NCBI GenBank assembly: GCA_950295325.1
Contig: OX485809.1
Location: forward strand, 5,394,001-5,458,000
Direction: 5' to 3'
Source: Polytrichum commune
Lineage: Eukaryota > Streptophyta > Polytrichopsida > Polytrichales > Polytrichaceae
DNA length: 64,000 bases
Both the position numbers and the translations under genes were made by a program. Within the stretch, counting starts at the first letter, position 1. The number at the start of each line of letters is the position of its first letter. Shown here piece by piece: positions 2,463-48,522 of this stretch. The notes under the pieces are model-generated. The model was given only the letters and a program-made list of their open reading frames with translations, made no database searches and was not told the origin of the DNA.

Positions 2463-2815
2463 GTGTCACATGCGTAATAGTGTCACTTACCCTATTTTGA
2501 GGTGCATGTTAGGTCACAAATGACACTTGGCATCAGTATCCTCAAGAACATCTTCCTCTTGCATACTAGAATGTAAACACATGACACTTGCCATCTGTAT
2601 GCTCAATATATCTTCCCCATGTTGCATATCAAAATGCAAAACTATCATCCCAAGTATCCCAATGTGCTACGCTAATGTCATAATATAAATATTTTTTCAC
2701 ATTAATGAATTACTTACGTTGACAAATAGTATTACGTTGGCATATCACAGTGTGAGACCTCTAGGCATCTAGTTTAGTCCCTTTGCAAATAGTGTATGTG
2801 ACACTAAATACCATA
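2463..2815. mobile_element. TIR element, AGTGTCACAT family, copy 1
   Basis: The left end reads GTGTCACATGCGTAATAGTG and the right end GCAAATAGTGTATGTGACACT, so the termini are short inverted repeats of AGTGTCACAT type. A second copy at 61303-61733 shares the ends, the run TAATAGTGTCA, repeated ATGACACTTG words, an internal AATATTTTTTCACAT block and the TTGCAAATAGTGTATGTG right end. There is no coding capacity. It behaves like a non-autonomous DNA element (MITE-like). The superfamily is not assigned because no clean target duplication was found. Confidence 0.6.
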
Positions 2816-3991
2816 AACAATGTAGTGAGCGTAAATTGAGATGAATCAACAACCAACCATGCAGCCCATAGAGAGACACTTTTTACTATTCCCGCCTCGG
2901 TTAGTGTTAGACAACCAAACTAGGTGTTGTTGTGGTTGTCATTTTATTCCCTTGGCCAAGTCAAGACCATTGTGCCACAATCAAGAAGGGAATCTAGAAA
3001 ACAAAAAATGCATGTGAAGCACGGTGTATGTTTGACAAATTTCATCTGACATTCAACTTCAAATCCAAAGTGTCACATGACGTTTTCAAAAACGGAAACG
3101 AATGTCAATCAACATGTACGTTTTCTTCCAAAATGTCACCTCAACGTCCCATGCCTAGTAGTACGTGTCATTTCAATTTCTAATGTGGCAATTGACGTGC
3201 GGTTTTTTCTTCACAAGTCACACTACATGTCAAATTCTAAAATTGTGCGTGTCAATTGATGTGCATTATTTATTTTTATGATTTATTTTAATTTTTTTTG
3301 GGCGGAAGCTTTTGCGTGTCAAATGTCAAAAATACACACTGATGTGGAGGTTGGAAGTGGCCATATATATAATAGGGCAACAACACCTTGAATTGCAAGG
3401 GCGGGGATTGTTGTTGTTTCTGGTGGTGGGCCTCCTGCCACCACCCCTACTTACATACAGTAGTCTGCGCCTGACGCTTCTGAGATAATTCTTGCATTGG
3501 TCGGCTTCATTCATCCGCCATCTGTTGGACACAAGTTTACTAAATCTGGAGTGGCAGCACTGTTTCCATACTCGACAAGCATCTGCATTTCAGTGACCTC
3601 AAACTTGTAGAAATTCAAGAGCTTGCTGTGCATGTAAGTAGTTTATTAGCCTACTGCAGCGTAGCAGCTTCAGGCTTAGCTCGGAGGGTGACACACGAGT
3701 CGAGGACATGCAGACTCAAGTCTGAAACCGAGACCCAAGATGTCTTATGCAAACAGCAATCTGCATAGCTAGAGAAGAGAAGCGGTGGGGAAGTTTGTAA
3801 GTGTGAAATCCTAACCTTCTTCACATGCTTAGTTGTTGACGACTCTGATCATGACGACGACCTAAGCTTAAGCAATGTGTAAGTTGTCGATGGCCACCAC
3901 AGATCGTACTCCCCTTTGTAGCTGTTGATGATGATGATACCTTTCCACCTACCTTACCCCTTAAGATCACTTCCTTTTCCATCACTCAGCG
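2816..3991. other. No recognisable gene
   Basis: No open frame with recognisable domains. The 3040-3260 part is rich in near-repeats of GTGTCA and ATGTCA words, perhaps from a decayed relative of the neighbouring TIR element. Confidence 0.4.
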
Positions 3992-4058: not shown

Positions 4059-5052
4059 AAGATAGACAGACAGAAAAAGCACAATGAGGTAGCTTAGCTC
4101 GGTTGCAAATCTCCAGATAATGTTGGTTGGTTCGGGGGGAGGTCCATGTTGCAGGGTGGCGATGGGGATGATCAAGTGACCTGCAAGTGTTTGTTGCTTT
4201 GTCATTCGGTGTTGTCTGACTCACCGTAGTTTAGTTCAGTGCGGTTTAGCTTAGTTGAGTTCCTTGGGGTTTGGTCCGCTGCAGAAGAGAGCTGACTATG
4301 TGGTGGGAAATGTTGATGCAACTTGGGTGTGGGTTAAGGTGACTCGCAACAAGGTATTGCAAGCCGGTGGCCATGGAGCCTCAAGAAAAGGGTTCAGCGA
4401 TGTTGATGATGAGCTCATAATAAGCCCAGTAAGCTCACTAATGGACCATATTGATCAATGGTCACATGCATGTTTGCAGGGGAGCTGGGCTGCAGTTGTA
4501 CACGAATAGTCTTCAGGAATGGTGCTGATGTACTTATGAGGAGGATGGCTATGGCGAGCCAGAAAGTGCAGGAATGGGGCAGGAATACAGGTCAAGTTCG
4601 GCGAAAGCATCATTAGTATATGAAGTCTTCCTCTTGGATTTGAGGAGCCCTCCTTTTCCCAGTTCTGCACTTTCGGCATGAGTCTATCTATGCCAGCGCC
4701 ATGGCAACCGAAAGATACATACATCTCAGAGGTAGCTGGCCGAAGTTGACGGTCCAACTCCAAGAGTTGAGGTCGCAGAAAAGGTACTCGATCTAAGTTA
4801 GGTTATTCCTCTCTGGAAGGTGATGCACAGGGGTAGAGCAGGTGCATGAACACTTTGTCGTATTGAAAGCCTCCGAGCATCCTTACTCATTTGCATTACT
4901 GGATGGCCATCATAGAATGAAAGCAAGCCCTGCACTTTATTGATGTGTGGCGAGCGAGCGAGCTGCTCACTCTTCAACCCCCTTTCCTTGTATCTTTAGA
5001 GAGGGTAGAATGCAGACAATGCGTTGATGCGTGAAGAATTCATATTTGGTTT
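4054..5052. other. No recognisable gene; distal upstream region of the kinase gene
   Basis: Open frames of 84 aa (plus, 4255-4509) and 102 aa (minus, 4455-4763) occur but have no recognised motif and overlap each other. The stretch lies 0.9-1.9 kb upstream of the kinase start and could include promoter sequence. Confidence 0.4.
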
Positions 5053-5880
5053 GGGCTCAACTTCATCACGTGTCAAGCTCAGCTTCGACTTCAGCTACTA
5101 AGCCGATTAAACCTGTGTGCATTGAACATCTGCATGTGCACAAATATTTTAAGATTAGTGATGGTTGAGCTGGGGAGAAGGCGGTAACTTTAATTACGTA
5201 GTAGTGGCCACATAACAGGAGCTCATCTGAAACTGCATGTGAGCACTTCATCTTCTCCTGCTGGCCGAAATCGAGGGTGTGCATTGGAATCTAGCTAGTA
5301 ATAGAGCTTTCATCAAGACTGGTGACGAGTTTGAAGATGTTAAGTGATTCTTGAGCTGGGGGAGAAGGCAGTAACAAGTAGTAGTGGCCACATAATAGAT
5401 GCTCAACTTCATGTGGAGGGGCACCTTCGGCATTGCCCGAAATCTGTGTACATTGAAATCTGTGCACGTAGCTTCATCAAGGCTGGTGATGTGATTTCAA
5501 GATGAGTAGTATTTGAACTGGGGAGAAGGCAGTAGTAAAATTATTGGAACTTAATAGATCTCAACTTCAAGCTGTGATCGCTCTCCTTCGGCTACTGGCC
5601 GAAAATCTGTGTGCGTTGGAATCTCCGCTCGGAGCCTTATCATCAAGACTGGTGAAGTAGTTTCAAGATTCGTAATGTGTTTGAGCTGGGAAGAAGGCGG
5701 TATCTTAGTATTGGTCACATATTAGAGCCCCAACCTCACGTGGGAACTTTTGTTTGGCCTACTGGCCGAGACATGTGTGCACTGGAATCTTGCACTCACG
5801 GCTTGAAAAACTGGTGTTTCTGAAGATTGGCGATGTTTGAGCTGGGGAGAAGGCTGTAAGTAGTATTGGTAGTGGTTCGG
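5053..5880. repeat. Degenerate tandem array, about 155-185-bp unit, five to six copies
   Basis: The landmark GAGCTGGGGAGAAGGC (with small changes) recurs near 5168, 5352, 5516, 5685 and 5840. Between the landmarks the order is constant: a GGCCACATAATAGAGCTC-like block, CTCAACTTCA, TGGCCGAAATC, TGTGTGCATTGGAATC and CATCAAGACTGGTGA. A partial first unit starts near 5053. The array ends about 40 bp before the kinase ORF, so it occupies the promoter or 5' UTR. The units differ by indels and many substitutions, so the array is old. Confidence 0.85.
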
Positions 5881-5918
5881 CGAAGTCATCATGTCTGAGC
5901 CATTTTGAGGCATCCGGT

Positions 5919-8576
5919 GTGAGAGAAAAGAGAGTTCAAATGGCTGTGAGAAGGGCCTTGCAGGCCCATGCACCTTACCCTAATTCACCATCACCATCAC
6001 CGAGCTCCCACAATAGCAAACACCATAACCTTGCCTTAGGCTTGGCTTTAGGATTGAGCCTGGCATTACTGATTGCAACCATAGTGTTGGCATGGGTGAT
6101 ATACCATCGCTTGAAGACAAGCCGCACAAGCCCATACGACCTAAACACATCCAAAACCTTGCAAAAGTTTTCTTACAGACAGCTGAAGCAAGCCACAGTG
6201 AACTTCTCGGAGTCACAGAAACTAGGGCAAGGGGGGTTTGGGGCAGTGTACAAGGGGCAACTACGCACAGGAGTGGAAGTAGCTGTGAAGAGAATCGATG
6301 TTTCCTCTGTACAAGGCGAAGTTGCATTCCAAAATGAGGTTTCCATCATAGGAAGGATCACATCTCCTCACATTGTGAAGCTGCTAGGGTTCTGTGCACA
6401 TGGGCCACGGAGATTGCTTGTGTATGAGTACATGGCTAACAGGAGCTTACAGGAAGCTCTGTTCGATGAGGTTTATGCTGCTCGATTGGACTGGGACATG
6501 CGATTTCGCATTGTGCTAAACACGGCGGAAGGGTTAGCTTATTTACATGGAAAGTGTGACCCTCCTGTGATCCATGGGGATGTGAAACCGAGCAATGTGC
6601 TCTTGGATGGCGAGTTTAAAGCCAAGCTTGCAGACTTCGGGCTTGCTAGGGTTAGGTCGGAGGAGAGCATCCTGGAGGTGCAGACACAGGAAGCACAGAG
6701 AGAGGCTGTGGAGAAAGAAAGGATGAGGTATGAGAGGGTGGTAAGAGACAGAGCAAGGAGGCAGAGACGGAGAGAAGAAGCTGAGAGGAAGAAACATCAG
6801 ACTCAGAATGTTGTGGAGGATGGTGGTAACAAGAGAAATCATCATCAGAACCCATCCATGGAGTTTGCATTTGAGCCTAACCCTGAGGGTGGGGGAGAGA
6901 GGAAAAGCTCAGCTTCCATGTTCGATGGGTTGTCCACGGAGGAAGAAACAAGTGGTATCATGTTGGACTCCCCTTGCTCCAAGGGTGGGAACAGCACTCC
7001 CACAAGCATTCTCAGACACAAAATGGGAGCATCACCTCCAGCAATCCGAGGAGCATTGCCTGAGCTTGTGTCAGAATGCTCACCAGTTTCAGCTCCAGCT
7101 GTTGGAACCGATGCCACAGACACAGAGGAGATAAGCTGGCAGGACTGTGATGAGAGCAGATCATACCCACAGTCTCCCATGTCGGTGACTAAACTGGAGA
7201 TTAGGTCTGACATGGATGGAGACAATTTCTTGAGTGCTGAAGAGGGAGAAACTGATATGGAGAAGAGTGTGATTTTGAGCATGGATGGCACAGGTGAGGA
7301 GGGGTGGAGTACAGTGAGTCCCTCCCAGCCTGATTTGGATTTCACTCTGGAAGCATCATCGGCAGGGCAAGGTGGTGAGGTTCGAAAAGGGTTAGGTCGC
7401 AAAGAGAAGAAGGTCGGGAGATCTTGGAGTAGGGATTGGTGGCGGAAACATCAGCAACGAGGCAATGGTCATGGAGGCCATGGGAATGGCAATGCCAATG
7501 GCAATGGATTAGGTGATGGTGATGGTGATGGTGGCAACAACAATGGCAATGGATTAGATTTGGATGTGAAGGATGCAGAAATTCATCAGAGTGCCATGAG
7601 CATGAAAGAGCAGCTTCAGAAGAGTGAGGAGCTCAATGAAATGGAGGGTGATGGAACCACACGAAGATCGAAGAGCCGCGCTGCAGAGCGCAGGCAGCGA
7701 TCGAGAAGCTCTGGGTGGGTGGGATCGTTTATTGGTGAGATGAGCAAAGTGGACAGCAAGAAGCAGAAGCTCCCTGCAAAGCAGCAACACGACAAGCTCA
7801 AAGGGCGGGAGTGGTGGCGCGAAGAGTACTGCGAGGAGCTCTGCAACAAGAGCAGGGAGTTTCGAAAAGTAGAAAAGGGGAATAAACATGAGGGGGGGAA
7901 CCGCAGCAGCCGGCGGCACAAGAAAGACGATTACACGAAATGGATTCGGGATTTTAGTCAGGAGTACGGGCCGGAGCTCGGGATGCACAGCAAGAACCAC
8001 CACAGCAAGAACCTGGAGGTTCGCAGGGAGAATCGCAAGTCGAGGTCGCGGCGGGAGGAGTTCTGGAGTGGCGACTCCTACCGGGGGGTTAGCAGCACAC
8101 CGAGCATGCGGGGGACGATTTGCTATGTGGCGCCGGAGTACGGAGGTGCTGGATTGCTCTCGGAGAAAAGTGATGTGTACAGCTTCGGCGTCCTTCTTCT
8201 CGTCTTGATTGCGGGCCGGCGGCCACTCCAAGTGACGGCTTCCCCGATGTCCGATTTCGAGCGCGCTAATCTCATCTCATGGGCGCGTCTGTTGGCACAG
8301 AGTGGCAATATTCTTGACCTCGTCGACCCCAGCCTTCAGTCCACCGCGTACTCGGAGGACCAAGCGGTCATGTGCATCACCGTGGCCTTGCTCTGCTTGC
8401 AACGGTTGCCGACTGCTCGGCCGAGTATGAACGACATTGTCAAGATCCTCAATGGAGAATTTGAGGTTCCTGACCTCCCCTTTGAGTTTTCGCCGTCTCC
8501 CCCAGGCTTCAAGTCGCGCCGAAAGCCCTCAGCTGAAGAAATTGTGATGCTTTCAGAGCCTCCAATCACTGTTTAG
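5919..8576 (+). CDS. Membrane receptor-like kinase with a long insert in the activation segment (At1g80870-like)
   Basis: Single-exon ORF of 885 aa; Met8 (5940) is an alternative start. There is a short Pro/Ser-rich head, one transmembrane helix at about residues 37-62 and no real ectodomain. The kinase domain shows GQGGFG at 103-108, VAVK Lys124, HGDVKPSN at 219-226 (Gly replaces Arg of HRD, so non-RD) and DFG at 239-241. About 480 residues of charged, low-complexity sequence then intervene before GTICYVAPE at 732-740. The kinase resumes with SDVYSFG and a normal C lobe. The insert holds Gly/Asn repeats (about 511-548) and Trp motifs such as RDWWRKH, REWWREEYCEEL and KWIRDF. Family knowledge: plant kinases of the At1g80870 type carry a similar insert with WW motifs. 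The role is presumably membrane signalling; ligand and substrate are unknown. The uninterrupted frame over 2.6 kb argues for a functional gene. Confidence 0.9.
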   Translation: MREKRVQMAVRRALQAHAPYPNSPSPSPSSHNSKHHNLALGLALGLSLALLIATIVLAWVIYHRLKTSRTSPYDLNTSKTLQKFSYRQLKQATVNFSESQKLGQGGFGAVYKGQLRTGVEVAVKRIDVSSVQGEVAFQNEVSIIGRITSPHIVKLLGFCAHGPRRLLVYEYMANRSLQEALFDEVYAARLDWDMRFRIVLNTAEGLAYLHGKCDPPVIHGDVKPSNVLLDGEFKAKLADFGLARVRSEESILEVQTQEAQREAVEKERMRYERVVRDRARRQRRREEAERKKHQTQNVVEDGGNKRNHHQNPSMEFAFEPNPEGGGERKSSASMFDGLSTEEETSGIMLDSPCSKGGNSTPTSILRHKMGASPPAIRGALPELVSECSPVSAPAVGTDATDTEEISWQDCDESRSYPQSPMSVTKLEIRSDMDGDNFLSAEEGETDMEKSVILSMDGTGEEGWSTVSPSQPDLDFTLEASSAGQGGEVRKGLGRKEKKVGRSWSRDWWRKHQQRGNGHGGHGNGNANGNGLGDGDGDGGNNNGNGLDLDVKDAEIHQSAMSMKEQLQKSEELNEMEGDGTTRRSKSRAAERRQRSRSSGWVGSFIGEMSKVDSKKQKLPAKQQHDKLKGREWWREEYCEELCNKSREFRKVEKGNKHEGGNRSSRRHKKDDYTKWIRDFSQEYGPELGMHSKNHHSKNLEVRRENRKSRSRREEFWSGDSYRGVSSTPSMRGTICYVAPEYGGAGLLSEKSDVYSFGVLLLVLIAGRRPLQVTASPMSDFERANLISWARLLAQSGNILDLVDPSLQSTAYSEDQAVMCITVALLCLQRLPTARPSMNDIVKILNGEFEVPDLPFEFSPSPPGFKSRRKPSAEEIVMLSEPPITV

Positions 8577-28014: not shown

Positions 28015-29127
28015 CAGTGTTCAAGATTGAAGTCTTCAATGCCCTTCAAACGCGATTTGGCCCTTCAAAATATACCTCTCTCAAAACAGCCCTTCAAAAT
28101 GCAACCCCAAACTCAAAATGAAAACTTCACTTGACGTCCTCAAAATTTTTACACCCGTCAACACTGTAGCGCTACAGTGACGAGGAGGTCGCTACAGTGA
28201 CAACCTCAACACCTAGCAAATGATTCATTCAACATCGATCTGACTTGGAATTCAACTTTTTAGGTCTTGCAAAAGATTGGAATCCAACCCTTTCTTTGGT
28301 AAGCATTGAGTCAGTGTTGTAGTGTGATGTGATTCAATCAATGTGAAATCAGTGCTGATTTGGGTCTACAAATTTAAAGGTTTGTGATGTAATTCACAGG
28401 CTAATCACGAATGAATGTTTTTTGTGGGGTGAAGGCCAGCACACTGGTCTTGACTTGTCCATTTTCAATGCGGCCCGGCTTTTTAGCCCGAAGCACTATC
28501 CCGTAGATGAATTGGGCAGAGGGACATTAACGGAACAATGGTTGAACCGGTTGGTGACACATTTCCGTTGGAGCGATGACCTTGTTAATCAATGCAATGT
28601 GCGCCGAAGTATGCAAGAAGCTTGGGTTTTTTGTGGCAATGACCGGGAGTTCATGATTAATTGGCCAACTATGATGTCGCTATGGCAAGCCATACTTGTG
28701 ATCCCAACTAGCACTGCTGTTTGTGAGCGTGGTTTTTCAAAGCAAAATTGGGTTAAGAGTGAAAGGAGAACTAGACTCAACCTTGACACACTAGATGCTT
28801 TAATGAGGGTTAGTCTAAATGGGTTAGGAGTTGAATTCATGGATTGGGATAGTATTTTTGAATCTTGGAAAATTGGCACAAGAACCAACAAGCGTAGGGC
28901 ATTATCACTAGAAGAGGTGGAGTTAGATGGTTGATTCTTAATTCTTCACATTGTATTGGAAGCATGCACCATATAAATCATGCATAAGTTTAATATGAGT
29001 TTTTTATATTTTATTTCTATATTACTGAATTGATGTCTTGAATTTGAACTAGCCCTTCAACCGAAGGGCTCAAATTCTAGAGCCCTTCAAAATGAAACTC
29101 ATATGAGGGCTTCAATCTTGAACACTG
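28015..29127 (+). mobile_element. hAT element with exact 8-bp target duplication (1,113 bp)
   Basis: GTTGCGTC stands at 28007-28014 and at 29128-29135. The ends are an 18-bp perfect inverted repeat, CAGTGTTCAAGATTGAAG. Subterminal GCCCTTCAAA words repeat several times at each end (28041, 28061, 28090 region; 29052-29095 region) and probably serve as binding sites. Only the last 170 codons of a transposase remain, so it is non-autonomous. The preserved ends and duplication suggest a fairly recent insertion. Confidence 0.92.
28422..28934 (+). pseudogene. hAT transposase C-terminal (dimerisation) fragment, 170 aa
   Basis: The frame contains WPTMMSLWQAILVIPTSTAV followed by CERGFSKQNWVKSERRTRLN and DTLDALMRVSLNG, the standard hAT C-terminal dimerisation region (ZNF862/KDCL-like branch). 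The zinc finger, the RNase-H-like core and most of the protein are absent. It lies in the middle of the hAT element, in the same strand sense as a transposase would. It may be an exon remnant after internal deletion. Confidence 0.88.
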
Positions 29128-34259: not shown

Positions 34260-34846
34260 TAATTCTCTTAGTCTAGAGGGGCGGTTTACACTATGGACCA
34301 TGAAGTCGTCCAACGGCCGTCTAAGCGATGTGATTGGACCTTGAAGTCGTCCTGGGACGACTTGGGTTTACACCAAGGAAAAAATGGCCGAGTGACCACG
34401 GAGGTTGATGTCCACAATTTTTTTTAAGCCTACTCTATCCACTACCATGGTCCAACAGGTTTTTCGTTGGGACAAGCAAAAGAGGTGGTCTGGGAAAAAT
34501 AGCAAGGGCCCACATCAGAAAAATGCCGTTTTAAAGATTTTTTTTGGATTTTTTTAATGATTTTTTTTCCGACTTAGTTAATGATTTTCTTCGGCTGCAG
34601 TTAAAAGGCTGTAACATTGTAAATACATATTTCCGTTATGGTTGAAAACACAGTAGAAAAAAACCCATTTTTGCAACCGTTTTTTTTGCAAGAAATTGAC
34701 CATTTGTATTTGTTCGTTTCACCACTGTTTTGATCTATTTCAACTAGTAGTGTGTGATATTTTTGAGGTAGAAAATGGAGGGTTATGGCGGTGATGGGGG
34801 ATCATAAAGAGAGTCCCAAGGAGAGTGGTCACAAAATTCTGAGTGG

Positions 34847-36097
34847 ATGCAAGAAATGACATCTCCAATTTTCAGACCTCATTATTCAATTTCAGAAATG
34901 CTACAGAGACCTAGTTTGCTTCCATCTTCTTTTAGTCTATTTCTTCCTCTTCCTCCTATAATTCATCCTCATGTAATTCACCCTCCTCTTTCCACTATTG
35001 AAGTTGGAATTTTTGAAGGCAAAGGAATAAGTAGGAAAAAAATGAATGGTTGGAAAGAAGAGGGGGGCACAACAAAAGAAGGATCAAAGAAGGTGAAGAA
35101 AGCGGATGTTATAGAACTTCGAGAATCAGATGAAGAGGAAATGAGAAGAATGAAGTGGAAGAACTTTGAGGTTTACCAGCTCATTGCTATTCAAGGAGAA
35201 ATGAAAGAAGAGTTTGCAAAATCGTCAAACAAACAAGGTAAATTTTCAGAGAAATACAATTTTTTTGAACAAAAACTAAAGCCTTGAAAACTTTGAATGT
35301 CTTGAATATTTTGTATGATGCCGTATGATGGGTTGTAGAAGGCCTTGGCCTTAGCCGTATGCCCCTATGCCCCAAAACAAGGTCGGTTGCTGCCGCAGGG
35401 GTGTTCACGGGTTCCGCGATTTGTGGGTGCCTCGCGCGCGGGAGGAATCGAACCCGGTTCACTTTCGAGCAAAGTTTTCCGTCGCTCACTCACCTACCAC
35501 TACTCCAATCTAATTTATTTAACATTGCTTTCAATTACTTCGTTCATATACATCACTTACTTACCTAGCTTATGTTGTTTTGACATTTCAGTTTGACATT
35601 TATGATTGGATTTTTACAGGTGTTAACGCATGGTTCAAACTGCAAATTCGGCTAATAGCTGCAATAAAACGGTTCAACAAGTTTTGGTTGTCATGTAAAA
35701 AAAATACAAATCCATTCTAAGTGATTACAGAAATGATAAAATGGCTAATGAAATTTCAGGTGCAGATAGATATTAAGAATACAGGTGGTTTACTGAAATG
35801 AATGAGTGACATAACAACACTGCAAGTGTACGCAACCAGATTCCAGCAAGTGCTACAGAATCAACTCTTGAAGATGTCATTCCATCTACTCCTCCATCTC
35901 AGACAACAACTGCTACAACACCAAACTCAACAATAATTTCCATCCAAGACAAGAAGAAAAAAACTCAAGAGAAGATAGAATTTTTGCTAGAACATGTTGT
36001 TGGTAATTCATGCGCTCTTCTTTCCTCATTCCAGGAATCCATAAATTTTATGAAGAACATGAACATAAATCTTGCTGCCCTCCTAGAAAAATTCTAG
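34847..36097 (+). pseudogene. Harbinger ORF1, Myb/trihelix-like DNA-binding protein (degenerate, spliced)
   Basis: Exon 1 ends with WKNFEVYQLIAIQGEMKEEF and NKQG at a donor near 35237. A matching acceptor precedes GVNAWFKLQIRLIAAIKRFN at about 35620, the same exon join as in the second Harbinger element here. A further piece near 35762-35806 reads RWFTEMNE with an in-frame stop just before it. The tail near 35980-36097 (LLEHVVGNSCALLSSFQES to LLEKF) matches the C-terminal helix of the other ORF1. Such proteins act with the transposase in binding the element ends. Internal stops make it a pseudogene. Confidence 0.65.
35330..35515 (-). mobile_element. tRNA-derived SINE candidate inside Harbinger intron
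   Basis: The minus strand has a perfect B box GGTTCGATTCC (forward 35444-35454) preceded by an A-box-like AGTGGTAGGTGAGTG (forward about 35487-35501). The local GC content is much higher than around it. A complete cloverleaf is not obvious. It is placed within the first intron of Harbinger ORF1. Ends and target duplication were not resolved. Confidence 0.45.
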
Positions 36098-36281
36098 CTA
36101 CTCAATTTCACTATCACTATCATTGTCTACTATAGTTGATTTTTTTGCCTTAGTTTGTATTACCACAAACTTTCTACCATTAATTCGTGCATTACTGTGG
36201 ATTCCCGCAAAAATGTTATTTGCCTTCTTGTTTTTTTTAATAAATTTTTAATAAATTTTTATTATTTCTTCATCATTTATT

Positions 36282-37390
36282 TCATTTATCTACAATTAGA
36301 GCATCTTTGGTGGCTAACATCCTCCTCTTCACTTCAGTAATTTCAGCCCTTTCGCCCCGTAATTCACTACCTTCTCGTATTTCTCCCTCATCAATCCTTC
36401 TACTCAATTTATTTTCTACCTCCACTATCCAATTTTCTCCTATGCCTTCCTTGTTCACAATGCGCAAATTATGCAACACTACACAAGTGATTATAATATC
36501 TGGCATATTTTGCAAAGGCACTTCGCATCGCTTCATTATCACCTTCCACCTAACCCTTCAATATCCCAAATGCCCTCTTTACACACATCCTAGTTGAAGA
36601 TTGAATGAAATTCCAATTAGCCTCCTTCCCGGATAGTGTTGTCTTCTCGCCCTTAAACGGACAATACATCCATGACTGAACCGGGTATGCCGCATCCCCT
36701 ATAAATTTGTACGGTTGAAATTTACCTTCTATACATCTACGTCCGATTCTTATAACTTGCAATACGCTCCAATCGTGAAGACTTCCTACCCACTCGAACT
36801 CATAATCCCAAAACATATAATCTGGTCCGACAATTCCTTGTAGAATTGCTGAATGAAATGACTTTCTGCAGTAATAATCTTGTCCGCCAATTAGAGGGGC
36901 TAAAACATGAATATGTGATCCATCTATTGCACATATGATATAAGAAATGCCGTGTAATTTTTCAAACCTTGAAGCTAAAATTCTAAACTGTGATTCGCTC
37001 GGAGTTTGTACAAAAACTGATTGTAGATATTTTCTAACCGCTCTACAAAACTCCCTCACTACTATTGATAATGTATGTTTCTGCACTCCATACAAGTCGC
37101 CTATGGTTTGCAATCCATTACCACTTCCCAACCGATGCAATGACATTGCTATCCTATCTTACACCGGCACCGTAACCCTTAATTGAGTATTTTTTTTTTC
37201 AAATACGGACCTAACCTCTCACACAAAAATCTGAATGTATTGTGTATCACTCGAGTTCGCTTTCTAAATTAATTCTCTGTCCACAAACCCAACAATAAGC
37301 GGTCTACGAATCTAATCATCCGTTCTTGACTCCATATACTCCTCTCTCTATACTCCATATTCTCATAAACCAAGCTCAAAATTGCTAATT
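36282..37390 (-). pseudogene. Harbinger transposase 1, inactivated
   Basis: Minus-strand DDE nuclease. The core frame (37146-36550) has CAIDGSHIHVLAP (first Asp), FIGDAAYPVQSWM (second Asp) and MCVKRAFGILKG, where the catalytic Glu of MCVERAFG is Lys. Right after GILKG one extra T shifts the frame; the continuation RWKVIMKRCEVPLQNMPDII is in the next frame (36542-36282). Upstream of Met37146 the same frame continues through LCERLGPYLKKKNTQLRVTV with a TAA stop, and a further stop lies before that. Thus there are at least two stops, one frameshift and one catalytic change. Confidence 0.85.
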
Positions 37391-38138
37391 TCTCCCATTC
37401 TCCTTATAAAATTAGCGCTTGAATATCTACCACATGCTTTACGAGCGTGTACAAAAACATGTACAATCCTAAAAGCAAAACAAATGTCCTCCCCCCCTCC
37501 TCCATTGCTTGCTGAATTTTTAGGTTCAAGCAAGCGAAAACTAGAAGACAAATAAAGAGAAAAGAAGAAAAGAAAAGAGAATGGTCAAACTTGACTTTTT
37601 CCAAAAATTGCATTTTTTTAATATTAAAAAATCAGCACCTCCACTTTTTGGTGCATGGTCATTCTTCATAGTCCACATTCGGTTTACACCTAGTGAAGGG
37701 CCCATGAACCATGAAAACTAATATTTTAGTAACTCGGACCATGGAAGTTGTCCCATGAAGTCGTCCCACGCAAAATAGGCCTCTTACGTGGGACGACTTC
37801 ATGGTCCATAGTGTAAACCGCCCCTGAGACTTTGGAGCACCAACTAGAATGTTTACCTCAACAACAAACATCCAAGACAATATCCAAGAGCCAAATTATT
37901 ACCAATGTAACTTAACCCACTTAGAACAGCGATTGCTCTTTATTGTTTTAATAAATGAGGCCAACATGTTGTTCCATAATCCACCCCAGTAAGAACCAGG
38001 GGTCCAATACTTGTAAACTTTAAACATTGTGTGTTTATTTTTTTATTTTTAAAAATATTTTTGGCACAAATGAAAAATCTATTGCAACAAAAACAAAATA
38101 CAACCACCCCAGCAGAACCAGCGCAACTTGAGGGAAAA

Positions 38139-39180: not shown

Positions 39181-40977
39181 GGTATAAAGAAAAAAATGGA
39201 GCGGTTTTAAAATAAAATAATTCCCACACAATATGTGACTTTAAATTCAAAATTACATAGGTTGTTATAGATATCATGAAAGTAAGTTCACATTATTTCA
39301 AAGATACCATGGTATTAAAAAGTTGCAAAAGGTTTATAGTGTTCTTGAGTGCATATTTATTTTGTGTATGTTTGTTTTGTATCGTGGCAACATGAAATTG
39401 CTTTGAGGTAAAATTGCATTGTAGTGAATCATTAACTTTGCCTTTTTAGACGGTTTTAGAAATGAGCCAAAATTTGCCCTCGGTCAAACAACCAACTAGA
39501 ATTGGCCACACATGTGGAGGATATCATAGGGCATAGCACTCTTGTGACAAGCCGCTTGTTGATTTATGATAAACATATGGTACATGAAAATGACTAACCC
39601 AACCTAATTAAAATATCCTAAAAAGTATGCACAAATAGCAAATTATAACCTAATTGAATGGATCATTCAATTACTTGTCAAACAGATAATACCCCCTAAA
39701 CAATTATACCTTTGCCACATGTGATTCCTGTAAGTCACACCAAGTGTCAACTCCAAGTATTTATGCCTCTTTTGCTATCACATCTAAGTTATTTTGAAAG
39801 TTGATCATTATAGCAAACACAAACATGTGGCATATTAATATACTTATCCATAATCGATAATTGTTGTGGAAATGACTTGTACTTATTGATTTCAAATGTA
39901 TTTATTTGCCTTTGCTTCCAATGTAGCATTACTCAGTGATGAGGGCCCTCAAAATGTAACAATGGGATGTTGGGGCTCAATCTAAATCTTAGTCTTTATG
40001 AGCGTAATTTCAAGCATTCGACTATTATATTCCAAAGGCCCACATAGTGAGAGCTGAACGTTGAGCAATGTAATCAATAAGTGAAATGACCTCTCTCTCT
40101 CTCTCTCTCTCTCTCTCTAGTTCTTGATCAAGGCTATGATATTAAACACTTTGTGATTATAAACTTTCACATTAGTCATCTAGAAATTGTTTTCTTTACA
40201 AATATATGACAATACAAGCAAGAGGTCCTACATATACATACATGGAAAAAGGTCATACTTTCCATACCAGATATGTAACGAGGATGTAGATGAAAGAGGT
40301 AAAGTAACCATGATTACAACTGTGAATCACATATGTAACCCATTGTGAGCCCAAAATGGTGCCCACATGTGGTGATTAACTCTTCGAAACCAATTTTAGT
40401 TTGACTTTGATGTGTTATGATTATTCACAAAACATAAAAAGAGTGAAGTGTGGTTTGGATTTAAGTTTAGGCTTTAGAATGTGTTGTGTGATTATTTCAA
40501 GGTTGAATTCAATAAGAGTATGCCTTGATAATGCGAGTAGGGGGTAAGGTGAAGCAAGGTGAGCTCCGCGGGTTAAATGCCCACTTTTGGATCCACTTTG
40601 TTAGTTTAGGAAGAAGGAAACTTGGTGGATGGGGGTTAGTCCCTACTTTGGAGGAGAGGGTTAAAGGATTGTGATTGGAGGTGCTAATCCTCTCACCCTA
40701 TCCTCACCTCTCTCTCCCTCGCTTCCTCTCTCCCTCTCTCCCTCTTTGCTACTTAAGGTGTTTTTCTCTCATTTTCATCTCTCTCCATCAAGCGCTCTCA
40801 AGGGAGCAAGCTCTTGAGAGCTTGAGCCACGTGTGTGGGTTATTAGTTTTTAGTGAAGTTAATTAGTTAAGCTCTCGCTTTCAAGTTCTCCCACGGGAGT
40901 GAGCTCTTATAGCTTGGAAGCCACGTGTGTGGATTAGTTAGCCCTTAGTGATGTTAGAGAGTTAGTTTAGATTGATT
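39181..40977. other. No recognisable gene
   Basis: AT-rich to about 40500. A (CT)n tract lies at 40091-40119. At about 40815-40960 a 100-bp near-duplicate contains GCTTGAGCCACGTGTGTGG and then GCTTGGAAGCCACGTGTGTGG; both carry a CACGTG core (G-box). No ORF assigned. Confidence 0.5.
40091..40119. repeat. (CT)n microsatellite
   Basis: Fourteen uninterrupted CT units. Confidence 0.95.
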
Positions 40978-41837
40978 ACCGTACCTGCATGGCCAGTTCA
41001 GCAGAAAATAAGTCATTTTGTGAGGTGCCGAAATACGTGATAAATATAAGGCCTCACTGCCCAAATTTGATGAAATTCATGGATGAATTGCCGAAATAGA
41101 TGAAATCAGCACGCGCAACGCGCAGACGACGTTCTGGCTTGGCTTGCCTTGCTCTCCCTTTTACTTGGCGGTGCGAAGATGTTAGGGTTTGTGTCGCGGC
41201 GCTGCAGAGGACCGTCGCAACCTCGGTGCAGATGGATTACGAAGTCTCGTTTCCTCCACATCGGTGTCGATGGATTACGAAGTCTCGTTTCATAGCTACC
41301 AGGCTTCACGCTATCTGTTCCAGTCTGCTTCCGCTACAGCCAATCCGCCATAGCCAGCCTCGGTCATGGCCTGGTGCGTCCCGCGCTCCCTCTCCCTCGC
41401 GCTTACCCTCCACCTTTCGATGCTCCTCTCGGACGCCGCAATTTGGAGTCGTGTGTCATTTAATATGGTGTAGGTTTGCTTAGGTTGTGGTTGCATTTGT
41501 GGTTCTGGGTGGGTGGGTTGTTGTGGCGGGGGTTTGGGAGGCTCCATTCTGATCAGGATTGGGGTCGTAGCGGCGTTTGTCGCGGCCTGATCAGTGCTTT
41601 AGTTCGAGCAGGCTGTAATTGGGAATCCCATTTCGTCCTGTGTGGTGTGGTGTGGTGCGATGTGATGTGATGTGATGTTGTGAGGTGGGGGTTTGTGTTG
41701 TGTTTGTTGTGGTTCTGGATTGTGATCGGGATTGGGGTGGTGTGATGGTTTGTGTGGTCTGGTGGACGAGGAGGCATTGAGAGAGAGAGAGAGAGAGATT
41801 TTCATTGTTGTTGAGGTTTGGGTTGGGGTTTGGTGTG

Positions 41838-42045
41838 GTTCAGCCATGATCAGCTATGGTGTGAGGAATGCATGATCAGCTATGGTGTGATCAGCTATAG
41901 CGGAGGAATGCAAGGTGTGAGAGGATCCTCATTCGGCGGTGGATTGCAGAGCAGGTTCAGCCATGATCAGCTATGGTGTGATCAGCTATAGCGGAGGAAT
42001 GCAAGGTGTGAGAGGATCCTCATTCGGCGGTGGATTGCAGAGCAG
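41838..42045 (+). repeat. Tandem duplication (117 and 91 bp) ending at a splice-donor-like site
   Basis: Copies 41838-41954 and 41955-42045 share GTTCAGCCATGATCAGCTAT, then GGAGGAATGCAAGGTGTGAG and ATTGCAGAGCAG. The first copy has a 26-bp internal duplication of its own. The second copy ends AGAGCAG followed by GTACCT, a possible donor 95 bp before the WD40 exon. The frame reads MISYGVISYSGGMQGVRGSS, which I do not recognise. Confidence 0.85.
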
Positions 42046-42140
42046 GTACCTCCACGATGGTTTACTTTAGCTTGATTCTCTTCTTTTTTTTCGAAATTGG
42101 AGTTTGTTGCTTAATCTGATGTTTGTTTTGGTGTTCTCAG

Positions 42141-42248
42141 ATCAATTCTGTTAAGTTCAATGAGTTTGCAGCAGCAATTGTCTTAGGTGGCTTCGACCGC
42201 AGCGTACGTGCTTGGGATTGCCTCTCTCACAGAACAGATCCAATTCAG
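42141..42248 (+). pseudogene. Captured WD40-repeat exon, WDR83/MORG1-like (36 aa)
   Basis: A single 108-bp exon with AG before it (CTCAG) and GT after it (CAGGTTTG), open in phase 0. It encodes INSVKFNEFAAAIVLGGFDR and SVRAWDCLSHRTDPIQ. The pattern NSVKFNE..., GGFDRSVRAWDC and S.....PIQ corresponds to one blade of plant WDR83 (MAPK organizer 1), a WD40 scaffold linked to splicing and MAPK signalling. No other WDR83 exon is visible nearby and the exon lies inside a TIR element, so I read it as a captured gene fragment. It is free of stops, so capture may be recent or the exon may still be spliced into transcripts. Confidence 0.65.
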
Positions 42249-42525
42249 GTTTGTCACTCTTTCAACTACCTTCTATGGGAAGTTTGGTGTAATTTTGTCT
42301 GCTACATTGGAACTCTTGTACATGTAGAGTACCGAAGTACTGCCTTTGTTTGCATGTTGCCGTTACTTTGATATGCAAGTTCAGGATGAGATTTATTCAA
42401 AAACTACAGTTTTGATACCATTAAAAGGATTCAGCTTTCTCTTCATAGAGTATCAGTTCTTGTGGAGTTTTTGAAGTGTTGGATGAGAGGGAAAACTGAC
42501 AGGCTTTGGCTTTTGTAAATTTCCA

Positions 42526-42837
42526 TTAGTAATGACTGTTTTGAACTCTGTTTGCACCTACACCTTGTCTTTTCCTCTTGTGTTGATTGCCTCCTTTGTG
42601 CTCTTCATCACCTTCCTTCTCTTTCTTGATTTGTTGAGGTTGAAATAGAATTGAAGACTTTCTAAGACGACCTATTGGACGTTTTTCTGGGCTCTCTCTT
42701 TCCAAACTTTTGTGAATTTCAGCTGCCTCATTCAAAACCTCAATTTCTTTTGCAAGAACTACTTCTCTCTCTTCTTGTGTGATTGTTTTGAATATAGAAG
42801 TAAGCATTGTTTGTTTCTTCTCACTGTGAAATGCCAT
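42526..42837 (-). CDS. Unrecognised basic ORF with GRxRK motif, 103 aa
   Basis: The minus-strand frame MAFHSEKKQTMLTSIFKTIT continues into a charged helix (EREVVLAKEIEVLNEAAEIH) and then PEKRPIGRLRKSSILFQPQQ and a Lys/His-rich end. PIGRLRK resembles an AT-hook (GRPRK) with Leu for Pro. It lies inside the TIR element, antisense to the captured exon. It may be the element's own ORF fragment or part of another captured gene. No homologue is known to me. Confidence 0.35.
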   Translation of the reverse strand: MAFHSEKKQTMLTSIFKTITQEEREVVLAKEIEVLNEAAEIHKSLERESPEKRPIGRLRKSSILFQPQQIKKEKEGDEEHKGGNQHKRKRQGVGANRVQNSHY

Positions 42838-43257
42838 TGTAATCTAAGAAACCTCTCACTATCACACTATTCTACACATATAAACCTCTATACTAAATTT
42901 TTGCATCGAAATTGTTCATACATACAACCCCATCCTCAGACTGTGAACTATTTCATGAAAACATATTGTCTACAAAAATCACAGTATTTTTGAGCTTAAA
43001 GCGTTAAGAGGAGGGATAAATGTAACAGAAATAACAAACTACAGTTATAATGCCGAATTTTCCGTTAAAACTGTTCGTTGGTGTTGAATAATGATTAAAA
43101 TATTGTTGTAACTGCAGAACGACCTTGCAGTAATTAAAATAATTATTCGGCACTTAAGTGCCGAATTGGCCATGCAGGTACGGTAGTTTAAATCACGAAA
43201 TCAAGTAGTCAAGTATCTAATTAGGGGCTTAGGGTCACCAAATTAGCTTGTAGTTGA

Positions 43258-43897
43258 GAAGGGTGACCAGCATACAAGGAGCTACGGCCTCGGCCAGCAG
43301 ACTGAAGGGTGACCAACATACAAGGAGCTACGGCCTCGGCCAGCAGACTGAAGGGTGACCAACATACAAGGAGCTACGGCCTCGGCCAGCAGACTGAAGG
43401 GTGACCAACATACAAAAGCTACGGCCTCAGCCAGCAGACTGAAGGGTGACCAACATACAAGGAGCTACGACCTCGGCCAGCAGACTGAAGGGTGACCAAC
43501 ATACAAGGAGCTACGGCCTCGGCCAGCAGACTGAAGGGTGACCATCATACAAGGAGCTACGGCCTCGGCCAGCAGACTGAAGGGTGACCAGCATACAAGG
43601 AGCTACGGCCTTGGCCAGCAGACTGAAGGGTGACCAGCATACAAGGAGCTATGGCCTCGGCCAGCAGACTAAGGGTGACCAGCATACAAGGAGCTACGGC
43701 CTCGGCCAGCAGACTGAAGGGTGACCAGCATACAAGGAGCTACGGCCTCGGCCAGCAGACTGAAGGGTGACCAGCATACAAGGAGCTACGGCCTCGGCCA
43801 GCAGACTGAAGGGCGACCAACATACAAGGAGCTACGGCCTCGGCCCAGCAGACTGAAGGGTGACCAACATACAAGGAGCTGCGGCCTCGGACCAGAC
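43258..43897. repeat. 46-bp minisatellite, 14 contiguous copies
   Basis: The unit starts GAAGGGTGACCAACATACAA and continues GGAGCTACGGCCTCGGCCAG, CAGACT. There are fourteen head-to-tail units: most are 46 bp, units 4 and 10 are 45 bp, unit 13 is 47 bp and the last is partial. Units differ by a few single bases (AACATAC versus AGCATAC divides early from later units), so the array is young. Because 46 is not a multiple of three, the 60-aa frame at 43721-43903 is a by-product. It starts 73 bp after the right end of the captured-exon element. Confidence 0.97.
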
Positions 43898-47208: not shown

Positions 47209-48522
47209 CTACTGACTATCATAGCCGTGAGGAAATGCCTCTGCTACAAGTCTTTTTTTCTTTGTACTCCAAATAACTTTTGCAATTGAATTTCTTCTTT
47301 CCGCAAGTTGGTGTGGAACTTTTCCATGTGCTTGCATGACTATTTGATATTGGTGTGCTGCTTCTTGCTTCTTACTCTCAAGTTCTTCTCTCGATTCATC
47401 ATTTAAACCAGTTAAATTATTCATTGCATCTGCAACTATTGCTTCTCTTTCAACCTGTCATTTTCAACATACAAGCATTGGAAAATCAATTGAACAGGTG
47501 CACATGCTCGGTTTAGTACTTCACTGAATGAAAGGAAATTCACTAAATGATTTCAACATATAGATTCGTCATGTTTATATTCTTACCTGTGACTGTCCAC
47601 GAACTTTGAAGGCTTTACCGTCATGTACTTCTGCTTGTGCCTCAGACACCCATTCATCATCAAATTTATCACCATGAAGTTGACAAATATTGTGTAGAAT
47701 GATACACGCTCCTACAATGTCCGGAACTTGTTGCAACTTGACCTCCATTATTTTCAATAATATTCTCTAACACCCTTTTAATAAGCCAAAGCTTCTCTCT
47801 ACACACATTCTGGTGCTGCTTTGAATAAAATTCCAATGGTATTGTTCACGAGAAAGCCCATCCTTGTGACCTTTAAATGGAGGAAACATCCACGGGCGTG
47901 CATGATATGTTGCATCTCCTACCAAGGCATATGGTGCCAATCTTCCTTCCTCACAAAATCGACCAATTCTTGTTCGACTCCACAAGTTTGAATCATGCAT
48001 TGACCCAGCCCAACCAATATCATAATCCCATAAAATGCACCTGCTCGTGACAACGCCTTGAAGCAACACTGAATGGAAGCCCTTGCGATTATAATAATCC
48101 GGTGCATGTATAGATGGAGCAACTATTGGAATGTGCGAACCATCAACAACTCCAACTATGTGCGGAATCTGGTGCAAAGCTTCAAATTCTGTTGAAATAT
48201 GGGTCATCATTGAACTCGACGGCCATTTGATATATTTTTTTTTCAAAGATTTCTTCACAGCACCAAGAAATTCAAGAACGATCTTTTGACTTGTGGACAA
48301 ACCAACCTCATATAGATCTGCTATCATCTGCATTCCATGACCAGTTGCAAGTCTTGAAATCGCAATAGCAACTCTAGTCTCAAGGGGAATAGCACGCCTC
48401 ATCCTCGTATCTACTCTCTGCATGTATGGTGCAACACTAGAACATATAAATATAAAAGTCGCTTGTTCCATCCTCATTCGTGTTTTGAACTCTCTTCTGT
48501 TAAATGAACCCAATAAAAACAC
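47209..48522 (-). pseudogene. Harbinger transposase 2, DDE triad intact, one nonsense codon
   Basis: Minus-strand exon 1 (48522-47587) encodes RMEQATFIFICSSVAP, GHGMQMIADLYEVGLS, VVDGSHIPIVAP (first Asp), LVGDATYHARPWM (second Asp) and RMCVERSFGLLKG (Glu). Directly after LLKG come Cys and TAG where relatives have Arg-Trp; the frame then reopens as RILLKIMEVKLQQVPDIVGA. A GT at 47586-47585 and AG at 47456-47455 define a 132-bp intron. Exon 2 (47454-47209) adds VEREAIVADAMNNLTGLNDE and a Lys-rich coiled tail ending DSQ. Upstream of 48522 the likely N-terminus is in another frame, suggesting a slip in a T run. One or two sense changes would separate it from a working copy. Confidence 0.87.

Follow-up and report, generated by a model that had tools for sequence, protein, structure and literature searches.

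Transposons that carry pieces of host genes have been published in plants as Pack-TYPE elements, and some of these are Mariner elements flanked by a TA duplication (Gisby and Catoni 2022, PMC8903248). The consulted sections of the same paper report a rice Mariner Pack-TYPE element that supplies an exon to a gene, and a review states, in its consulted part, that events involving Pack elements generate genes under purifying selection (PMC8616336). Pogo-like elements have been reported in Selaginella and in dicots, according to the sections consulted of a further study (Mob DNA 2020, PMC7325037). The locus described here holds a gene-capturing transposon, an instance of a process of capture that is already known in plants, and the record of its assembly is unusually complete.

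The window, by which we mean the whole 64-kb stretch of DNA that was analysed (G000:C7:5394001-5458000), was compared with a genome of 407.8 Mb in 64 contigs. It contains a 2,205-bp element at 40979-43183 on the plus strand, whose ends read CCGTACC...GGTACGG. When the outer TA is included, the inverted ends (40977-41003 and 43159-43185) are complementary at 25 of 27 positions and match perfectly over the outer 19 nt, while perfect 19-nt inverted arms within 5 kb were found in 0 of 20 Markov-1 controls of the window. The sequence-only reading had placed a 26-bp inverted repeat around 2.2 kb; the repeat is real, and the correction concerns its limits, since the element proper starts and stops one base inside each end given there.

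The ends, target site and arms of the element are as follows, in window coordinates.

40977-40978, no strand: left copy of the TA target-site duplication; a single TA is present at all 9 empty sites fetched.
43184-43185, no strand: right copy of the TA target-site duplication, with one TA at the empty sites.
40979-41003, plus strand: left terminal inverted repeat, defined by end matching and the genome-wide end search.
43159-43183, minus strand: right terminal inverted repeat, defined in the same two ways.
40979-41232, plus strand: left arm of the transposon, 87-92% identical to the long copies L009-L012.
42568-43183, plus strand: right transposon arm, which shares 93-96% identity with six long copies.

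The left flank of the element is a dispersed repeat, for which a first look gave 998 candidates; 40 of these were scored and listed, and 39 lie elsewhere in the genome. From these 39, nine empty repeat copies (L030-L038) were fetched, and in all nine the two flanks join at a single TA, so that the insertion must have duplicated the TA.

Several other features of the window were recorded. There are further 19-nt inverted pairs, which belong to other elements; the motif TGCCGAA has 5 of its 10 window matches inside the element; and Rfam gave 0 matches in the window at the gathering score. A 46-bp minisatellite (43258-43895, about 14 copies, 96% match) lies some 70 bp to the right of the element. 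An element with matching inverted ends (AGGGGCGGTTTACACTATGG...) occupies 34277-37825 and includes a DDE_Tnp_4 frame at 36550-37158 on the minus strand, which presumably assigns it to the PIF/Harbinger-type superfamily; no target duplication was found for it at a filter of 5 bp or more. A second DDE_Tnp_4 transposase frame is located at 47767-48522 on the minus strand. At 28015-29127 there is a 1.1-kb hAT-type element with CAGTG ends, an 8-bp duplication (GTTGCGTC) and a hAT dimerisation domain in the frame 28359-28934. Finally, a 911-codon open frame at 5841-8576 resembles, by eye, a receptor-like kinase whose kinase region is interrupted by a long low-complexity insert. The genes point to a plant as the host; an example is a match to the N-terminus of an ALE2-type receptor kinase (E 6.3e-43).

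The ends of the element define a small family. Allowing up to 3 mismatches, the end sequence has 54 matches in the genome (27 per strand), and a reversed-pattern control has 0. Pairing the ends within 12 kb yields 25 elements, which span 224-8,672 bp with the TA counted in, and leaves 4 ends unpaired; 19 of the paired members measure 0.2-0.6 kb, the present one 2.2 kb, three 3.2 kb, one 4.6 kb and one 8.7 kb. The TA adjoins 33 of the 34 ends read across 18 fetched copies, the exception being one end of L011. The sequence-only reading had proposed a genome-wide search for an end family and its target duplication, and what emerges is a dispersed family with a TA duplication, whose ends are not unique to this locus.

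The 3.2-kb copies (L010-L012) and the 4.6-kb copy (L009) have the same arms as the element, and their transposase pieces run on the strand opposite to its cargo. The Pfam domain DDE_1 was found above cut-off in L010 (E 4.1e-7) and L011 (E 9.3e-7), and one piece of L009, at 20.6 bits, narrowly misses the cut-off of 22 bits; Pfam matched none of the five further transposase pieces taken from L009-L012. With 150 of 287 candidates scored, a genome search with the transposase protein gave at least 148 matches, of which five have 84-100% identity. The relative L047 (64% identity) has a 590-codon open frame with DDE_1 (E 2.9e-13), and L048 also exceeds the DDE_1 cut-off; a match to HTH_Tnp_Tc5, a Tc5-type helix-turn-helix, is sub-threshold (E 0.036), and matches to DDE_3 remain below their cut-off. 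DDE_1 is a pogo-type Pfam domain, and domains of the DDE_1/DDE_3 type belong to the Tc1/mariner superfamily. A complete intact transposase frame was not found in the long copies of the close family, which share the ends and the DDE_1 pieces. The element itself retains one feature of this kind.

42529-42837, minus strand: 103-codon open frame that begins with the N-terminal region of the family transposase; the same frame is present in the long copies.

In the long copies, the frame is followed by further coding sequence that is absent from the element, and L047 has, by eye, a stretch resembling it that is joined to the catalytic part. The frame has no Pfam match, there is no functional transposase in the element itself, and a Pfam search of the element's own open frames found neither a transposase nor a named gene. 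In viral contigs the end sequence has 0 exact matches, and of 12 candidates none was confirmed as a relative of the minus-strand frame. Given the DDE_1 pieces in its long members, the element is a non-autonomous Tc1/mariner-type transposon of a DDE_1 transposase family, and the DDE_1 match makes this family probably pogo-like. In principle, a transposase that acts on the common ends could mobilise the element.

The cargo consists of pieces of two unlinked genes in the same orientation: a second gene, here called gene X (L016), and WDR83 (L015). With 40 of 42 candidates scored, each captured part matches one other place in the genome; the remaining matches to the element are the family copies and a few short weak ones to the right arm. 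The cargo features are listed below.

41256-42112, plus strand: gene X fragment (L016), comprising a GC-rich 5' region, the presumed first coding exon and the start of the next intron.
41871-42052, plus strand: 91-bp tandem duplication inside the gene X fragment.
42046-42140, plus strand: hybrid intron with the gene X donor and the WDR83 acceptor, joined at CTT (42110-42112).
42110-42509, plus strand: WDR83 fragment 1 (part intron, exon, part intron), 385 of 400 positions identical to L015.
42141-42248, plus strand: captured WDR83 exon, phase 0-0, 36 codons, with 4 changes from the parent, 3 of them amino-acid changing.
42510-42512, plus strand: 3-nt filler CTT, lying where the WDR83 sequence has lost 406 bp relative to L015.
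42513-42572, plus strand: WDR83 fragment 2, 59 of 60 aligned positions identical to L015, one gap.

The 108-nt exon is bordered by AG and GT and aligns to an exon of L015. It was matched by tblastn with an Arabidopsis WDR83 query (E 2.7e-11) and with the WDR83 chain of PDB entry 9s2f (E 2.5e-8). In a phmmer search of the PDB it matches residues 112-147 of 9s2f over 36 of 36 query residues (42.9 bits); this was the only match with one stretch passing alone among the 60 listed, and the four other WD40 chains that ranked above it did so through sums of many weak repeats. The exon peptide alone gave weak WDR5/THOC3 propeller matches in Pfam, below cut-off. The parent is a WDR83 gene on contig C5, in which tblastn with the Arabidopsis query shows seven ordered exon pieces; 406 bp of this gene, including the next WDR83 exon, are missing between 42509 and 42513 of the element.

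The gene X fragment has a 29-bp deletion in addition to the 91-bp tandem duplication, which ends at the donor-like CAG|GTACCT that starts the intron at 42046, and about 23 more bp of gene X directly precede it (about 41231-41253, by eye). The stretch 41256-42112 differs from L016 by 16 substitutions over 604 aligned sites, where there are also 45 gap columns, and by 2 over another 122, a count that omits the rearranged part around the duplication (about 41860-41990). Most of the GC-rich part derives from gene X; the stretch has a GC of 0.57 and a CpG observed/expected ratio of 1.16, values reached by 6 of 1,061 overlapping windows. Pfam gave nothing at cut-off for gene X.

Much of this had been proposed by the sequence-only reading. 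Its 108-bp phase-0 WDR83 exon is borne out by tblastn, phmmer and the alignment with L015, and the parental gene it suggested looking for exists on another contig and matches the exon as well as its flanking introns. The tandem duplication ending at a donor-like site is present, and the GC-rich stretch that it called promoter-like is real; what required correction is the interpretation of this stretch, which forms, together with the duplicated segment, the 5' end of a second captured gene.

The 5' gene region and the hybrid intron could yield a chimeric transcript, and the alternative that survives best is built on this possibility. It supposes a functional chimeric gene: transcription would start at the gene X promoter, splicing of the hybrid intron would join the transcript to the WDR83 exon, and the outcome would be a product or a regulatory RNA, such as small RNAs directed at WDR83 or gene X. 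The retained donor and acceptor signals, the common orientation of the two fragments and the CpG content of the GC-rich part all speak for it, as do 59 ATG-donor combinations in the element that could give an in-frame join to the exon via weaker donor-like sites, so that an in-frame product might still be formed through these. However, a coding frame that begins at the ATG at 41963 and is spliced at the natural gene X donor is shifted when it reaches the captured exon and meets a stop after 14 codons; this donor agrees with the consensus at 7 of 9 positions and the best in-frame donor at 6 of 9. Moreover, the exon evolves at the intron rate: it differs from the parent at 4 of 108 sites and the flanking intron at 11 of 292 (Fisher p=1.0), and no constraint on the exon is apparent from these small numbers. 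Two of the exon changes, Ser to Leu and Arg to Leu, affect residues on which the parent, the Arabidopsis query and the PDB chain agree. Only 9 of the 324 possible single changes of the exon create a stop, so four changes would be expected to leave the frame open, and the open frame is no sign that the exon is used.

Because of the drift of the exon and the frame shift at the natural donor, no protein function is expected, functional exonisation is rejected as the leading reading, and we consider the chimeric gene improbable. The sequence-only reading had suggested that the exon could be spliced into host transcripts; useful splicing finds no support, given the out-of-frame natural donor and the intron-rate divergence, and also the deletion of the next exon and the position of the element in a dispersed repeat. 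As far as these alignments indicate, the captured WDR83 exon is not evidently functional and would be neutral cargo. A stop-free exon with good splice signals can thus be neutral cargo, and a gene model drawn from the exon alone would mislead.

The view that the locus itself has a genuine WDR83 gene or pseudogene of which the exon is a part, the inverted repeat being incidental, is almost certainly wrong. The open exon and its two splice signals would agree with such a gene, but tblastn found no other WDR83 piece in the 64-kb window. The sequence-only reading had named two results that would refute a capture, the remaining WDR83 exons in order within the spacers or beyond the window and ends confined to this locus, and neither was seen. 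The WDR83 gene with its seven ordered exon pieces lies instead on contig C5, and the exon sits inside an element whose empty site appears in 9 of 9 fetched repeat copies.

Target duplications of Mutator-like elements (Pack-MULEs) are 9-11 bp long, and a Pack element of this or another superfamily with a 10-bp offset duplication is almost certainly the wrong reading, since the 9-of-10 match TAGTTTAGAT/TAGTTTAAAT that flanks the element, equalled in only 29 of 3,000 random position pairs, has both its halves at the nearest empty site, L030, without an element and with a single TA, and the family transposase is DDE_1. This near-match was found by similarity alone, and the empty sites show it to be a chance match.

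We prefer, with a probability of about 0.93, the account of a non-autonomous DDE_1 Tc1/mariner-type element that holds a drifting two-gene cargo. The family, the TA insertion, both parental loci and the junctions are direct observations, and the gene-capturing, Pack-type layout that the sequence-only reading had recognised is upheld by the terminal-repeat family, the TA duplication and the two parental loci.

The junctions of the cargo were read by eye. The left arm and gene X have GA in common, after which a short piece of gene X is re-copied; at the next junction CTT is common to gene X and WDR83; the internal junction of WDR83 is a deletion with the CTT filler; and WDR83 fragment 2 and the right arm overlap by the common TCTTT. 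Junctions with 2-5 bp of microhomology or filler fit template switching or end joining, and do not discriminate between the two. No family end was found, at up to 4 mismatches, in the 9-10 kb fetched around L015, L016 or L051.

A plausible course of events is that a family member lost most of its transposase gene and received instead copies of the 5' end of gene X and of an internal WDR83 piece. The cargo would have been copied in by template switching or end joining at microhomologies of 2-5 bp, and the likeliest occasion is the repair that followed when an older copy, still bearing the transposase, was excised or replicated. The cargo differs from its parents at 34 of 1,186 sites, and 7 of 578 sites differ between the host repeat and L030, the closest of its empty paralogues (p=0.03). 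As the cargo is more diverged than the host repeat, the capture would predate the insertion if the rates are similar, which is suggestive of a chimera that then transposed to its present site as one unit. One copy carrying the L015 and L016 cargo was found in the genome.

A second member of the family has also captured a gene. The 8.7-kb copy L017 (G000:C6:43307400-43316400), with TA on both sides, holds 2.0 kb of another locus: its blocks 281-1060, 2644-3046, 4403-4622 and 7854-8464 are collinear with L051:2972-4997 at 96-99%, and the first block has L051 as its single other genome match. The locus encodes a Tlg2-like syntaxin (phmmer E 6.4e-9; Pfam Syntaxin_2 below cut-off). The gap at 1060-2644 of L017 holds a repeated hAT-like insert, and the captured gene is interrupted by later insertions; a close likeness of the hAT element at 28015-29127 of the window is among the interruptions of L017 and is repeated in the genome.

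Captured genes were thus demonstrated in 2 of the 25 paired members, and a 1.35-kb GC-rich insert of L009 (about 1482-2835) may be a third capture; of the 19 short members, nine or more were fetched, and in these the aligned sequence takes up all or nearly all of the length that a cargo could occupy. We lean slightly towards the view that this pogo-like (DDE_1) family repeatedly captures the 5' ends of host genes and fuses unlinked genes via microhomology, which builds hybrid introns with the donor of one gene and the acceptor of another. If repeated capture is true, pogo-like elements are gene-capturing agents comparable to Pack-MULEs. One small family here offers both parental loci, junctions at base level, an empty site and a second capture, which makes the mechanism of capture testable.

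The closest described systems are the Pack-Mariner and Pack-TYPE elements of rice and maize, which, in the consulted sections, share with the present element its non-autonomous nature, terminal inverted repeats, a TA duplication, pieces of host genes and a mostly low copy number; the Pack-TYPE Mariner elements described there have Stow(away)-type ends, whereas the present family has other ends and a DDE_1 transposase (PMC8903248). The consulted part of the same paper favours the fusion of neighbouring insertions, and here two genes are joined via a hybrid intron at short microhomologies. Relics of ends inside the element would be expected under the fusion model, and none above the shuffled maximum occurred among the top 25 places (three shuffles).

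Pogo-like Tc1/mariner elements resemble the element in their terminal inverted repeats and in the TA target site common to the IS630-Tc1-mariner group; the consulted sections describe no gene capture by them, in contrast to the captured genes of the present family (PMC7325037). The probable pogo likeness of the family is read from the DDE_1 match, and the Tc5-type helix-turn-helix stayed below cut-off. Gene capture by pogo-like elements was not found in a literature search judged mostly by titles, which is no proof of absence.

The purifying selection described in the consulted part of the review (PMC8616336) contrasts with the drift of the captured exon in this element. Pack-MULEs and Pack-CACTA elements, as presented in the sections consulted, likewise carry gene fragments between terminal inverted repeats, and they differ from the present element in their superfamily, their ends and their target duplication (PMC8903248).
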